From contig CAIOAN010000008.1 in NCBI GenBank assembly GCA_903855995.1, positions 372,001 to 436,000 on the forward strand: a DNA stretch of 64,000 bases, given 5' to 3'. Position 1 is the stretch's first letter. Each line of letters starts with the position of its first letter. The position numbers and the translations under genes are program-made. This document shows, in pieces, positions 295 to 7,602 of this stretch. Source of the DNA: an uncultured Opitutia bacterium (GTDB lineage Bacteria; Verrucomicrobiota; Verrucomicrobiia; Opitutales; UBA953). The notes under the pieces were generated by a model, which saw only the letters and a list, made by a program, of their open reading frames with translations, was not told the origin of the DNA and searched no databases.

Positions 295-1443
295 TCAATA
301 GACGTCGCGCTGGTAGCGGCCTTCTTTCTTAAACTGCTTCACCCACTCCAAGGCAGCCTCAGGCGTCAGTCCACCCTGCTCCGCCACGATGGCGTGCAAG
401 GCCGCGTCGACATCCTTCGCCATGCGCTTCGCATCGCCGCAGACGTAGAAATAGGCACCCTGCTGAATCCATTTCCAGAGTTCGGCGGCGTTCTCGCGCA
501 TCCGGTCCTGGACATAGACCTTCTCAGCTTGGTCGCGCGAGAAAGCCGTGTCGAGACGGGTGAGCACGCCCGCCTGCTGATACTCCGACCATTCATCGGC
601 GTAGAGGAAATCATGGTCCTTGCGCTGGTCGCCGAAGAAGAGCCAGTTCGGGCCCTTCGCGCCACGGGCGGCACGATCCATCACGAAGCTACGGAAGGGG
701 GCGACACCGGTACCTGGGCCGACCATGATGACCGGGATATTATCGTCGGCCGGGAGGCCGAAGTGAGAATCCGCGACAAAGATCGGCAAATCTGGTTCAT
801 TCATGCGGGCGCGGTCAGCGAGGTAGCTGGAGCAGACGCCTTCGCGCGAGCGGCCATTGGTCTCGTAACGGACCACGGCGACCGTGAGATGGATTTCCTG
901 CGGATACTTCGAGGGCGCGGAGGAGATCGAATACAGACGCGGCATCAGCTTGCGCATGAGTTCGATGAGTTCCTGTGCGGATGGACGGGCAGACGGGTGC
1001 TCCAGGAAGAGGTCGAGGAATTCGCGTTGCTCCATCCAAGCTTTCTTTTTTTCGGGATCAGCTTCGCCGATGGCGGCCGCGAGACGATCCTTGTCCGCAG
1101 CGTCGGTCGCCCGGTCATGCAAGAGCTGGGCGAACTTATACGTTGGGCCATTGAGGGCGAGGCGGGTCGACAGCGCTTGCCGCAGGGTAACCGGGGATAG
1201 ATCCTTGGGGATGGTCACCTGCTCGTCGCCCGTGAAACCGGCAGCCTTGAGCAAGGCGACCACGGTGGCCGGGTTGTTGGTCGGAAACACGCCCAGGCTG
1301 TCGCCGCATTTATAGGTGAGGCCGCTGCCGGCGAGGGACACTGAGAAGTGCTGAGTATCCTTCTGGCTGGCAGGAGAACTCAGACGACGACGGTCGACGA
1401 GACGGGCCGGGAACGGGTTATTCTTATCGAAAGGGGCGGACAT
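295..1443 (-). CDS. CysJ-like sulfite reductase flavoprotein / FAD-NADPH reductase lacking the flavodoxin domain
   Basis: RLYSISSAPS (FAD), GVCSSYL, GPGTGVAPFRSF, YVCGDAKRMAKDV (NADPH), C-terminal YQRDVY; only 382 aa. Confidence 0.85.
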   Translation of the reverse strand: MSAPFDKNNPFPARLVDRRRLSSPASQKDTQHFSVSLAGSGLTYKCGDSLGVFPTNNPATVVALLKAAGFTGDEQVTIPKDLSPVTLRQALSTRLALNGPTYKFAQLLHDRATDAADKDRLAAAIGEADPEKKKAWMEQREFLDLFLEHPSARPSAQELIELMRKLMPRLYSISSAPSKYPQEIHLTVAVVRYETNGRSREGVCSSYLADRARMNEPDLPIFVADSHFGLPADDNIPVIMVGPGTGVAPFRSFVMDRAARGAKGPNWLFFGDQRKDHDFLYADEWSEYQQAGVLTRLDTAFSRDQAEKVYVQDRMRENAAELWKWIQQGAYFYVCGDAKRMAKDVDAALHAIVAEQGGLTPEAALEWVKQFKKEGRYQRDVY

Positions 1444-1503: not shown

Positions 1504-2217
1504 TTACTTCCAGACCTTGACCCAGTCGATGTCCACGTCGTCGGGTAGTTGCTTGAGATTCAGACTCGGGCGTTCGAATTCCGCCACGCGGTGGGAAAAG
1601 GTGATATTCACCGGGAGTTTCATCTCCACGCGGTCGACCTTATGCACCTGCTTGCCGTTCACATACCAGATATAACTTTTCTCGGAGCAGAGTAGTCCGT
1701 AGGTGTTGAATTTCTTGGACGCTTCGCCCGCCTTCAGAAACTGGGTCATCTTACCTTCTGGCCGGTAATCATGCTGACCGTTATCATTCACGGTGCGCAT
1801 CCAGGGGTGAAGGGAATCGCCGCCAAGCCCCTCAAAGAGCACCAAGGTATTGGGAATAGCCTTACCATCGGCGGGCCCGAGTCGCAGGTAGCCCGTATGC
1901 CCCTTGTAAGCATTCATCCGCATCGATGCTTCAAAGTAGCCGAACAGCTGTTCGAACTTCCCCTTGGTGCTGATGCCATTCCCCTGAATCATGTCCGCAC
2001 TCTGCACGAGAGAGATACGCAGAACCTTATCCTTACCCCCCTTGACGATCGAGATGGCCTCCTTCTTGCCTTCGACAATCCACTTGGAATCATCCAAGGC
2101 GTCGCCGTTGAAGTCGTCGGAGAAAGTCAGTTTCTTGCCGCTCGTGGGATCGACGGCCATGGCCGCGGCGGCGGAAAACAGAATAAGAAGGGACGAGAAT
2201 CGCATCGAGGAAATCAT
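1504..2217 (-). CDS. Secreted GH16-fold (concanavalin-like) protein, paralog 1
   Basis: Signal peptide; LTFSDDFNGDALDDSKW, KKFNTYGLLCSEKSYIWYVNGKQ, DVDIDWVKVWK. Start taken at ATG 2217 (alternative 2205). Confidence 0.75.
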   Translation of the reverse strand: MISSMRFSSLLILFSAAAAMAVDPTSGKKLTFSDDFNGDALDDSKWIVEGKKEAISIVKGGKDKVLRISLVQSADMIQGNGISTKGKFEQLFGYFEASMRMNAYKGHTGYLRLGPADGKAIPNTLVLFEGLGGDSLHPWMRTVNDNGQHDYRPEGKMTQFLKAGEASKKFNTYGLLCSEKSYIWYVNGKQVHKVDRVEMKLPVNITFSHRVAEFERPSLNLKQLPDDVDIDWVKVWK

Positions 2218-2909
2218 TTCCAGGCTTTGACCCAATCGATGTCGATATCGTCGGGCAGCTGCTTGAGATTGAGGCCCGGACGTTCCCACTCTCCCACGCT
2301 ATGGTTGAACTGAAGCATCATCGGCTTCTTCACTTCAATCTTATCCAATTTGAAGGACTGCTTGCCGTTGACATACCAAATGCACGATTTCTCAGTCCAG
2401 AGGACGCCATAGGTGTTGAACTTCTTGGAGGCTTCGCCGCCCTTAAGGAACTGCTTGCCCGTTCCTTCCGGGCGATAGTCATGCTGGCCGTTGTCATTCG
2501 CGGTGCGCGACCAGGGCCAGCACTTGTCATCTCCCACCGCTTCCCACATCAGGTCGGCGAATGGAACCTGCTTTTCCTCGACGGGGCGGACGTGGAACCC
2601 GCCCGTGTGCCCCTTGTAGGCGTTCACGCGCATGCTGACCTCGAAATAGCCGTAAGTCTGTTCGAACTTCCCCTTCGTATTCACCCCATTCCACTGGAGC
2701 ATGTCGGCGCTCTGTTTGAGGCCGATGCGCAGGACCTTATCCTTGCCGCCCTTGACCAAGGTCAGCGCCTCCCGTGCCCCGAACACATTCCACTTGGTCT
2801 CGTCGATGGCATCGGCGTTAAAATCATCGGAGAAGACAAGCTTCTTGCCGTTCGAAGGATCCACGGCGAACACCGTGACAGCTAGAAACAGGAACAGGAT
2901 GTATCTCAT
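2214..2909 (-). CDS. Secreted GH16-fold protein, paralog 2
   Basis: Signal peptide; LVFSDDFNADAIDETKW, FNTYGVLWTEKSCIWYVNGKQ, DIDIDWVKAWK; 4-nt overlap with both neighbours. Confidence 0.8.
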   Translation of the reverse strand: MRYILFLFLAVTVFAVDPSNGKKLVFSDDFNADAIDETKWNVFGAREALTLVKGGKDKVLRIGLKQSADMLQWNGVNTKGKFEQTYGYFEVSMRVNAYKGHTGGFHVRPVEEKQVPFADLMWEAVGDDKCWPWSRTANDNGQHDYRPEGTGKQFLKGGEASKKFNTYGVLWTEKSCIWYVNGKQSFKLDKIEVKKPMMLQFNHSVGEWERPGLNLKQLPDDIDIDWVKAWK

Positions 2910-3598
2910 GGAATTTTATAGGCTTTCACCCAATCGACCTGCAGAGGCTCGGGGCCGGCCTTCGGATTCGAGAAATCCTTGAGCAAGCCGCCTTCCGGCA
3001 GGTTATGGCCGAAGTGAATGTACATCGGCTTCACCGCGCTCGGGCGGGTCATGCGCTGCACCTCGCGGCCATCGACGAAAAAAATGTAGTTCTTCAGGGT
3101 CCACTGCAGGCCGTAGGTGTGGAACTTCTTCCAGCTCACGCCACCCTGTAGATTCACCGGACTGGTCTTCGGGGTCATGCGATGCGAGCCTACCTCGTCG
3201 GTGATCCAGAGATTGGTATCAATCTTATCATCCCCCATCGCGCTAAAGGACATCGAGGCGGCCGGGAGCGGCACCTTGTCCGGATTACGAATCGTAAATT
3301 CCGCCCAGCGCCCCTTCGTCTGAATCATCCGGATCGATGCTTCAAAATAACCCTGCATCGACTCAAACTTACCCTGCGTGTTCGCCCAGCTGCCGTTCCA
3401 GAAGCCCGGCTTCACGCCCGGGGTGATTTCCAGCGAAAGCTTGCCATCGACGACCTGGGCCGCCCCACCCTTGTTCCATTTCTTTTCGTCGAGCTCCTTG
3501 CCGTCGAAATTCTCCTCCCAGACAGGCTTCAAACCCATGCTCGGGGCAGCCAGGGCGGAGACCGCGGAAAACAGGCATGAGAGGACAAGGGGGCGCAT
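2906..3598 (-). CDS. Secreted GH16-fold protein, paralog 3
   Basis: Signal peptide; PVWEENFDGKELDEKKW, FHTYGLQWTLKNYIFFVDGREV, LQVDWVKAYK. Confidence 0.8.
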   Translation of the reverse strand: MRPLVLSCLFSAVSALAAPSMGLKPVWEENFDGKELDEKKWNKGGAAQVVDGKLSLEITPGVKPGFWNGSWANTQGKFESMQGYFEASIRMIQTKGRWAEFTIRNPDKVPLPAASMSFSAMGDDKIDTNLWITDEVGSHRMTPKTSPVNLQGGVSWKKFHTYGLQWTLKNYIFFVDGREVQRMTRPSAVKPMYIHFGHNLPEGGLLKDFSNPKAGPEPLQVDWVKAYKIP

Positions 3599-3647
3599 GG
3601 GGAACGACTCTAATCAATGAAAAGGCCCGGCCGTGGCAAGCCCTACC

Positions 3648-4352
3648 CTACTGGTAGACCTTCACCCAATCGACGCGCATCGGCTCCGGCCCCTTGGTGG
3701 GGTCGTTGAAAGTCTTAAGAAAACCCGCCTCCGGGAGGCCATTGTGACTCAACCCGATTACCATCGGCTTGGTCGTACCCGGCTGGGTCATTTTCTGCAC
3801 CAATCTCCCATCCACATACCAACGATAATCCGTCGCGGTCCAGGCGAAGCCGAACTTGTGAAATTTCTTACTATAATCGCCCTTCGGTATCGGATTTTCC
3901 TTCGGGGTAAGCGAACGACCGCGCTCCTCATTCACGATGCCCAGCGAAAGCGTCACCGCATCGCCGCCAGCGTTACTGAAACCCATGCTCGCGGAGGGAT
4001 TTCGCTTGTCTTCGTTCCCGATGGAAAAGCCCGCGCCGTGGCCGCGCGTCTGCACGAAGAGGATCGAGGCTTCGATATAGCCGTAGGCCGCCGTCTTGAA
4101 CTTGCCGTTCGTATTGACGCTCGAGCCTCGCCAGAACATCGGCTTGTCGCCCGGTGTGATTTCCAGGGAAAGCTGGCCGTCGACGAGCTTGACGCCGGTC
4201 TTGCTGCTGGCGGTCCACTTCGTCTCATCCAGCGCCTTGCCGTCGAAATTATCCTCCCAGACCAGCTTCATGGAAGACTCCGGAGCGGCCACCAAGGCAG
4301 CCTGCAGGCAGACGCCAAGGCAGAAAATCAGAATGCTGCGCGGGACAATCAC
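3648..4352 (-). CDS. Secreted GH16-fold protein, paralog 4
   Basis: Likely GTG start at 4352 (VIVPRSILIFCLGVCLQAALVAAPE signal peptide); LVWEDNFDGKALDETKW, FHKFGFAWTATDYRWYVDGRLV, MRVDWVKVYQ. Confidence 0.75.
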   Translation of the reverse strand: MIVPRSILIFCLGVCLQAALVAAPESSMKLVWEDNFDGKALDETKWTASSKTGVKLVDGQLSLEITPGDKPMFWRGSSVNTNGKFKTAAYGYIEASILFVQTRGHGAGFSIGNEDKRNPSASMGFSNAGGDAVTLSLGIVNEERGRSLTPKENPIPKGDYSKKFHKFGFAWTATDYRWYVDGRLVQKMTQPGTTKPMVIGLSHNGLPEAGFLKTFNDPTKGPEPMRVDWVKVYQ

Positions 4353-6118: not shown

Positions 6119-6710
6119 CCCGCCCCCGATCCCGCCGCCCCCTGCGGGATACTGGTGGCGCACCCTCGCCTGCCTGGCGGACATCGTTCCGCTGCTCTTT
6201 CTCGGCTGGGCTTTGGCGGGATTACTGGCCGGCCCCGATGAATTAGCCACACGACAAGCGACGGACACTTGGACGCACAAGATGGCCGACCAATATATGC
6301 GGGCGCTCAAGTCAGGAAACTCGCGTGACCTTCAAGCCGTCATCGACATGGTCCTGCATCCGAAGGAAGCCGACCTGAAGGCGGCCGAAATCTGGATCAA
6401 TTTCCAAGGTACGGTCACATTTTTCACCCTGCTGATCCTGCTCACGCTGCAGGAATGGCAACTCAAGGGACGGACGCTCGGAAAGCTTATCTTCAATCTG
6501 CGGACGATCCAGCTCCCGGAGGCGGAAGCCCCGGGCTTCATGAGTTCGCTCCTACGTTCCGCCTGGAAGGCCGCGTTCTTCGCCTTACCTAACCCTTTCT
6601 TCATGATTCTCGGCATCGTGAATTTTCATGTGCCGCTCTTCCGCCGGGATAAGCGAGCCTGGCACGACCTCTGGAGCCGCTCCCAGGTCGTCGATAATAA
6701 ATTGTCCTGA
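6111..6710 (+). CDS. RDD-family membrane protein
   Basis: Hydrophobic segments, [48 protein letters not shown] start overlapping folD. Confidence 0.75.
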
Positions 6711-6717
6711 CCCCGCC

Positions 6718-7602
6718 ATGCGAGTCGCCCTGCTCATCCTGGCCTTGGTGACGTCACTGCATGGCGTCGATCTCACGTTGCCGTCGTTGGCCGAAGGCGC
6801 ACCGCGTCCCGGCAAACGCGCCACCGTGATCGCCCCGGAATATGCCGGCACGAAGGTGCGTCACCTAATCGCGTTGCCGGACGACTGGACGCCGGACTGG
6901 AAGGCTCGCGGAAAGCACTGGCCAGTCATCGCCGAATACACGGGCAACTACTACCCTGGCTCCGGCTCGACGGGCGAGGTCGAGGGCGCCGGCCTTGGAT
7001 ACGGCGTGGCCCGCGGCCAGGCGATTTGGGTCGTGCTCCCCTACGTCGCCAAGGACCACCTCAAGAACGAAATCACCTGGTGGGGCGACATCGACGCCAC
7101 CGTCGGCTACGCCAAAACGAACATCCCGCGGATCTGCGCCGAGTTCGGCGGCGACCCGAAGAAGGTCGTCCTCTGCGGCTTCTCACGCGGGGCCATCGGT
7201 GTCTCCTTCCTCGGCCTGCACGACGACGAAGTCGCGAAGCTCTGGTGCGGTCTCTGGGCGCACGACCACTTCGACGGCGTGACGGCCTGGGTCGCCCCTT
7301 GGGGTGCGCCTCTCGCGCGTTACCGCGAGGAAACCGCGGTGAGACTGCGACGCCTGCAAGGCCGCCCGGTGCTCATCAGCCAAGGTAACCCCGGTGAGGT
7401 GACTCGGAAATTCGTGGAACCGATCGTCCCCCAGAACGTGGACTACCTCACGATCGACATGGGCGCTCTCTTCGGCAACTTCCCCAACGACTTCGTTAAG
7501 CATCCCCATAACGACCGCTGGCCGCTGCGCGATTGCGCCCCGACGACCACGGCGCGCGCCTGGTTCGAACGCGTGACGGCGACGGATAAGACCGCGAAGT
7601 AA
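6718..7602 (+). CDS. Secreted alpha/beta-hydrolase-like protein
   Basis: Signal peptide (MRVALLILALVTSLHG), nucleophile elbow GFSRGA, C-terminal HPHND. Confidence 0.7.
   Translation: MRVALLILALVTSLHGVDLTLPSLAEGAPRPGKRATVIAPEYAGTKVRHLIALPDDWTPDWKARGKHWPVIAEYTGNYYPGSGSTGEVEGAGLGYGVARGQAIWVVLPYVAKDHLKNEITWWGDIDATVGYAKTNIPRICAEFGGDPKKVVLCGFSRGAIGVSFLGLHDDEVAKLWCGLWAHDHFDGVTAWVAPWGAPLARYREETAVRLRRLQGRPVLISQGNPGEVTRKFVEPIVPQNVDYLTIDMGALFGNFPNDFVKHPHNDRWPLRDCAPTTTARAWFERVTATDKTAK

Follow-up and report, generated by a model that had tools for sequence, protein, structure and literature searches.

The window, by which we mean the whole stretch of 64,000 nucleotides analysed here, carries near its beginning four consecutive genes for GH16-fold proteins (P1 to P4), each predicted to be secreted, between two conserved neighbours. 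The features of this locus are as follows, in the order of their coordinates.

295..1443, minus strand: CysJ-like FAD/NAD(P) reductase (PF00667, PF00175), conserved downstream neighbour, recognised from Pfam and synteny
1504..2217, minus strand: P1, array position C1, secreted GH16-fold protein, PF00722 at 34.9 bits
2214..2909, minus strand: P2, array position C2, secreted GH16-fold protein, PF00722 at 48.5 bits
2906..3598, minus strand: P3, array position B, secreted GH16-fold protein, PF00722 at 43.8 bits
3648..4352, minus strand: P4, array position A (subfamily A from the tree and gene order), secreted GH16-fold protein with a GTG start at 4352, PF00722 at 37.3 bits
4417..5139, minus strand: RluB-like pseudouridine synthase (S4 and PF00849 domains), conserved upstream neighbour, recognised from Pfam and synteny

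The extent of this four-gene tandem cluster agreed with an earlier sequence-only reading of the same DNA, all genes lying on the minus strand, as did the coupling of three of the genes by 4-nt overlaps. An ATGA, in which the start codon lies inside the stop codon of the preceding gene, was found at both P3/P2 and P2/P1; between P4 and P3 there is a spacer of 49 nt. Each product is a single-domain protein of about 230 amino acids in which PF00722 was the sole profile over its cut-off. The hydrophobic N-termini of P1-P4, also present in 139/141 members of the wider family, support the secretion proposed in that reading. No lipoprotein signal was evident in the four window genes, and neither a sorting tag nor a repeat was seen in their products. 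P1 and P2 are 65% identical, P3 and P4 50%. Near the array, a 324-aa open frame (window positions 6628-7602) was without a Pfam match at E <= 0.001.

The PF00722 scores of the four proteins all exceeded the curated cut-off of 22 bits, and the profile was matched at E <= 0.01 by 86/86 tested family members. A profile built from the family and its catalytic relatives retrieved the laminarinase 5wut with an E-value of 5e-45. AlphaFold2 models were obtained for P2 (pLDDT 92.3, pTM 0.87) and P3 (pLDDT 90.4, pTM 0.87), and their top Foldseek matches were all GH16 enzymes with a probability of 1.00. The best PDB match of the P2 model was 3azx (E 2.6e-13), with 4crq also recovered (TM 0.76), and among solved structures P3 best matched GH16 laminarinases such as 4dfs (E 8.9e-13). 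The NCBIfam models gave sub-threshold matches only, to glucanases and carrageenases. The GH16 ancestry and the duplication of these genes were thus supported by Pfam for all four proteins and by AlphaFold2 and Foldseek for P2 and P3, which supports the descent of P1-P4 from a catalytic, laminarinase-like GH16 enzyme. The terminal GH16 motifs described in the sequence-only reading were present although their consensus had been slightly idealised, since P2 has DDFNADAIDETKW and P3 has FFVDG. Membership in the 3-keto-disaccharide hydrolases (PF06439) was considered and rejected: this profile weakly matched 11/86 family members, with a best E-value of 0.00026 against 4e-15 for GH16, and was not listed for P1-P4 at E <= 1.

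The active-site strands of the four proteins read TLVLFEGLG (P1), ADLMWEAVG (P2), ASMSFSAMG (P3), and ASMGFSNAG (P4), and align at the GEIDIMEFKG of a catalytic GH16 enzyme encoded elsewhere in the same genome. One Glu is kept in the P1 and P2 strands, and the P4 strand has no catalytic acid. These strings, and the loss of the canonical triad in all four copies, were confirmed as originally read by eye. To place them in a broader frame, we compared the family, whose 142 distinct members come from the window's genus and, for two genes, from a sister genus, with 47 other GH16 relatives. In the MAFFT alignment, the ExDxxE/ExDxE motif was present on the active-site strand of 43/47 relatives and of 0/142 family members. 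The nucleophile Glu was absent in 140/142 members of the same alignment, and the assisting Asp was absent in 142/142 whichever register was considered. There was no Glu at the acid/base site in 71/142 members, the acid/base Glu was the only one left in 69/142, and both Glu were kept, with Tyr in place of Asp, in 2/142, which are the two sister-genus genes (SEIYVAE in L140 and AELYIAE in L141).

The assignment of individual residues to the catalytic acids is uncertain by ±1 in the family strand, which is about one residue shorter (its bulge being shortened) and for which hhalign preferred a register one residue off. In the register without the bulge, Asp121 of P2 falls at the nucleophile site, but Met123 then occupies the site of the Asp. 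We also searched the 142 members without any alignment for the pattern ExDx(1,2)E, which was found in five of them, four times in the loop preceding the strand and once near residue 41. The absence of the motif from the strand is therefore independent of the register, and an alignment artefact was rejected as its cause; neither the shifted hhalign register nor the pattern search restored an intact triad in the strand. The canonical GH16 retaining mechanism needs two carboxylates and an assisting Asp. With the nucleophile and the assisting Asp gone, this double-displacement mechanism cannot operate, and the array proteins are very probably non-catalytic in the canonical sense. According to published figures, one or both catalytic residues are missing from 0.7% of GH16_3, 9% of GH16_4, and 1% of most of the remaining GH16 (PMC6827312). 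A loss shared by four neighbouring genes and all 142 relatives is thus more than would be expected by chance.

Loss of catalytic residues in every copy could also be the signature of decaying pseudogenes left from a former laminarinase cluster. Against this, the median dN/dS (Nei-Gojobori) was 0.11 over 231 family pairs at 80-98.5% identity, no internal stop was found in the listed family members, and gene order is conserved across species. The values for individual window genes against their orthologs, 0.096 for P1 (ortholog in L009) and 0.051 for P3, are rough because synonymous distances were high. The family is therefore not decaying but retained under purifying selection, and we consider pseudogene decay ruled out by the dN/dS of 0.11. 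The earlier suggestion that the proteins were repurposed from hydrolysis was supported as regards the loss of the triad and the continued selection, and the specific roles that had been offered, glycan binding or matrix building, are candidate functions.

The changes extend beyond the triad. Several residues of the substrate subsites that are conserved among the 47 other GH16 relatives were lost in the family: two Trp (found in 43/47 and 47/47), one His (42/47), and one Arg (37/47). An N-terminal loop was absent from nearly all 142 members. Other positions have become conserved (P2 numbering): an acid at position 209 in 142/142 members (Glu in 131, Asp in 11), Arg or Lys at position 212 in 138/142, and His, Gln, or Asn at position 205 in 140/142. 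The former acid/base Glu was found in all members of three groups, C (16/16), D (17/17), and Y-type (15/15). At the same site, His was present in 15/16 E members, A members mostly had Ser or Gly, and B members mostly Val, Thr, or Ser; Glu was lost from the majority of A, B, and E members and from every q2, q3, r1, and r3 member. Mapped on the tree, this Glu showed nine state changes, from which the number of losses can be counted only approximately.

The strict conservation of Glu in the C, D, and Y types suggests that the residue still has a chemical or structural role, and residual or altered chemistry is conceivable since all 48 of these members have kept it. Some of the proteins (C, D, and Y types) might thus be altered enzymes, such as a transglycosidase, an inverting enzyme, or a lyase, in which the Glu that is left would serve as general acid alongside H205, E209, and R212. 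This reading, which we consider unlikely, would fit the invariant acid at 209, the near-invariant positions 205 and 212, and the retention of both Glu in the sister genus, as well as the weak PF06439 matches mentioned above. It is opposed by the absence of Glu from so many array positions, by the complete loss of the assisting Asp, and by the much stronger match of the family to PF00722 than to PF06439.

Within the window's genus, 43/55 genomes yielded strong family members, as did two genomes of the sister genus, the next matches within the order scoring about 90 bits or less. Relatives in the named collections were mostly Opitutae/Verrucomicrobia metagenome genomes, with isolate names pointing to lakes. 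The family was separated from the 18 catalytic rows in the tree (SH-aLRT 100), in which insect sequences were left out; the deep branching among subfamilies is approximate because this was a quick tree, with SH-aLRT support only and several long branches. Paralog order was never permuted, and the arrays were fixed as A-B-(C2)-C1-D-E, X-Y, q1-q5, or r1-r4, usually with one copy per position. The window has A, B, C2, and C1, while relatives reach A-E. The division of the four proteins into 1/2 and 3/4 in the sequence-only reading was therefore right but incomplete, as they represent four positions of an ordered array. Over all arrays, 28/69 gene junctions were 4-nt stop/start overlaps.

In the genus loci whose flanks could be read, the array lies between rluB and the cysJ-like gene. 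The RluB-like gene marks the insertion site both in array loci and in empty sites, the latter being observed in five genus members with genomes of 1.3-1.5 Mb (L189-L193) in which the rluB-like and cysJ-like genes are directly adjacent. These five relatives suggest that the array is a discrete unit, and the sequences support tandem duplication between the two flanking genes as the origin of the copies, which became fixed positions, each with its characteristic residue at the former acid/base site. Two contigs (L041, L053) whose species labels are Akkermansia muciniphila and Polynucleobacter meluiroseus carry the Opitutales rluB-array-cysJ locus, and these labels look wrong. Separately, the B and C1 copies of genome G036 are joined in one 414-codon frame (L039:5434-6675 and L014:1501-2742), either a fusion or a sequencing error.

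The fixed order, the usual single copy per position, and the 4-nt coupling would also be expected if the GH16 fold were a mere scaffold for the subunits of a surface or periplasmic assembly without glycan ligand. The divergence of the grooves among family members, compared with their conserved termini and backbone motifs, points in the same direction, and the groove may indeed have no glycan ligand at all. Nevertheless, such purely structural subunits appear improbable: neither sorting tags nor repeats were seen in the window proteins, nor a secretion-system gene in their flanks, and the existence of genomes with a single copy (L059/L152, L142, L143) indicates that hetero-assembly is not obligatory.

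The source genome (2.66 Mb) also has two further GH16 genes with intact motifs (GEIDIMEF and VEIDILE), so that the array proteins might be accessory or decoy partners of these enzymes, acting in targeting or product sequestration. Both catalytic genes, however, are located away from the array, and several array-bearing draft genomes, such as G057 and G043, the latter 96% complete and with five copies in its array, were without detectable orthologs of both enzymes. This weakens the case for a dependence of the array on the two catalytic genes, and we regard a partnership of this kind as very improbable.

The interpretation that we prefer, with a probability of roughly 0.5, is that the array encodes a set of secreted pseudoenzymes that derive from GH16, are restricted to the genus, probably bind glycans, and possibly form heteromers. 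The four genes make up an array that is ordered and operon-like, and each encodes an exported protein of a single domain. As beta-jelly-roll, lectin-like subunits, these proteins would work as a set, either periplasmic or on the cell surface, the remodelled groove binding a polysaccharide that may be cell-derived or algal. We give glycan binding about an even chance of being the job of these proteins. Since the family has also lost the aromatic platforms on which glucan is usually held, we do not expect it to bind the ancestral substrate. A heteromeric assembly of the array subunits is conceivable because gene order and gene coupling are conserved, but we hold it only tentatively. A more elaborate arrangement seems a long shot: up to five paralogs, some with one carboxylate and others with none, might combine at the surface into a heteromer with a novel site for catalysis or binding (H205, E209, R/K212 in P2 numbering) and handle polysaccharide by a mechanism unrelated to GH16 hydrolysis. 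The conserved array neighbours are of housekeeping type, and no SusCD-like or transport gene pointing to polysaccharide uptake was found among them, the nearest flanking genes in the window being the rluB-like and cysJ-like genes, followed by a short-chain dehydrogenase.

The array family has in common with the GH16 laminarinases 3azx, 5wut (ULam111), and 4crq (ZgLamC), which we take to be members of the GH16_3 subfamily, the beta-jelly-roll fold, a full-length profile match, and the N- and C-terminal motifs. It differs from them by the missing triad, the shortened strand, the loss of the N-terminal loop and of the subsite Trp, His, and Arg, and the new acid and base. Most of the known GH16 pseudoenzymes come from insects (PMC6403176), whose GNBPs/beta-GRPs, non-catalytic relatives of GH16_4 glucanases, resemble the array family as GH16 homologs without catalytic Glu that are proposed to bind glycans (PMC6403176, PMC6827312). 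In contrast to the insect proteins, which have an extra N-terminal region or carbohydrate-recognition domain (PMC6403176), the array proteins are bacterial, single-domain, only about 230 aa long, and organised in ordered tandem arrays. Their loss of catalysis was likely independent of that in insects, because the nearest catalytic relatives found were bacterial (Bacteroidota). A working analogy is provided by the surface glycan-binding proteins of Bacteroides beta-glucan loci, which are non-catalytic exported binders acting beside cell-surface glycosidases (PMC7157763), although the array has neither SusCD-type neighbours nor, in the window genes, an evident lipoprotein signal.

In the literature searched, largely outside subscription journals, no bacterial example of GH16 pseudoenzymes in an ordered array came to light. 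The present case is an entire clade of 142 proteins, all without the motif, that purifying selection maintains in ordered arrays; among GH16 sequences outside GH16_4, such loss is reported for about 1% or less. The family also offers a series from enzyme to non-enzyme, running from catalytic GH16 outside the family to ExYxxE in the sister genus, one Glu in some array positions, and none in others. Annotation based on PF00722 would assign to each of these freshwater bacteria as many as five additional glucanases, although the proteins are probably no such enzymes, and would distort estimates of carbohydrate degradation from metagenomes.

Deviations from the GH16 motif were also observed elsewhere. 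In three genomes of another Opitutales genus, proteins of about 900-1100 aa (L144:2206-2862, L146:2071-2727, and L147:2059-2715) have a C-terminal GH16 domain reading PEIDVLD, with Asp for the acid/base Glu each time, and L145, from another family, reads EEIVVFD. Finally, an otherwise catalytic GH16 ortholog of the L002 type contains one internal TGA in two genomes (G041:C7:22981-23715 and G034:C41:748-1491).
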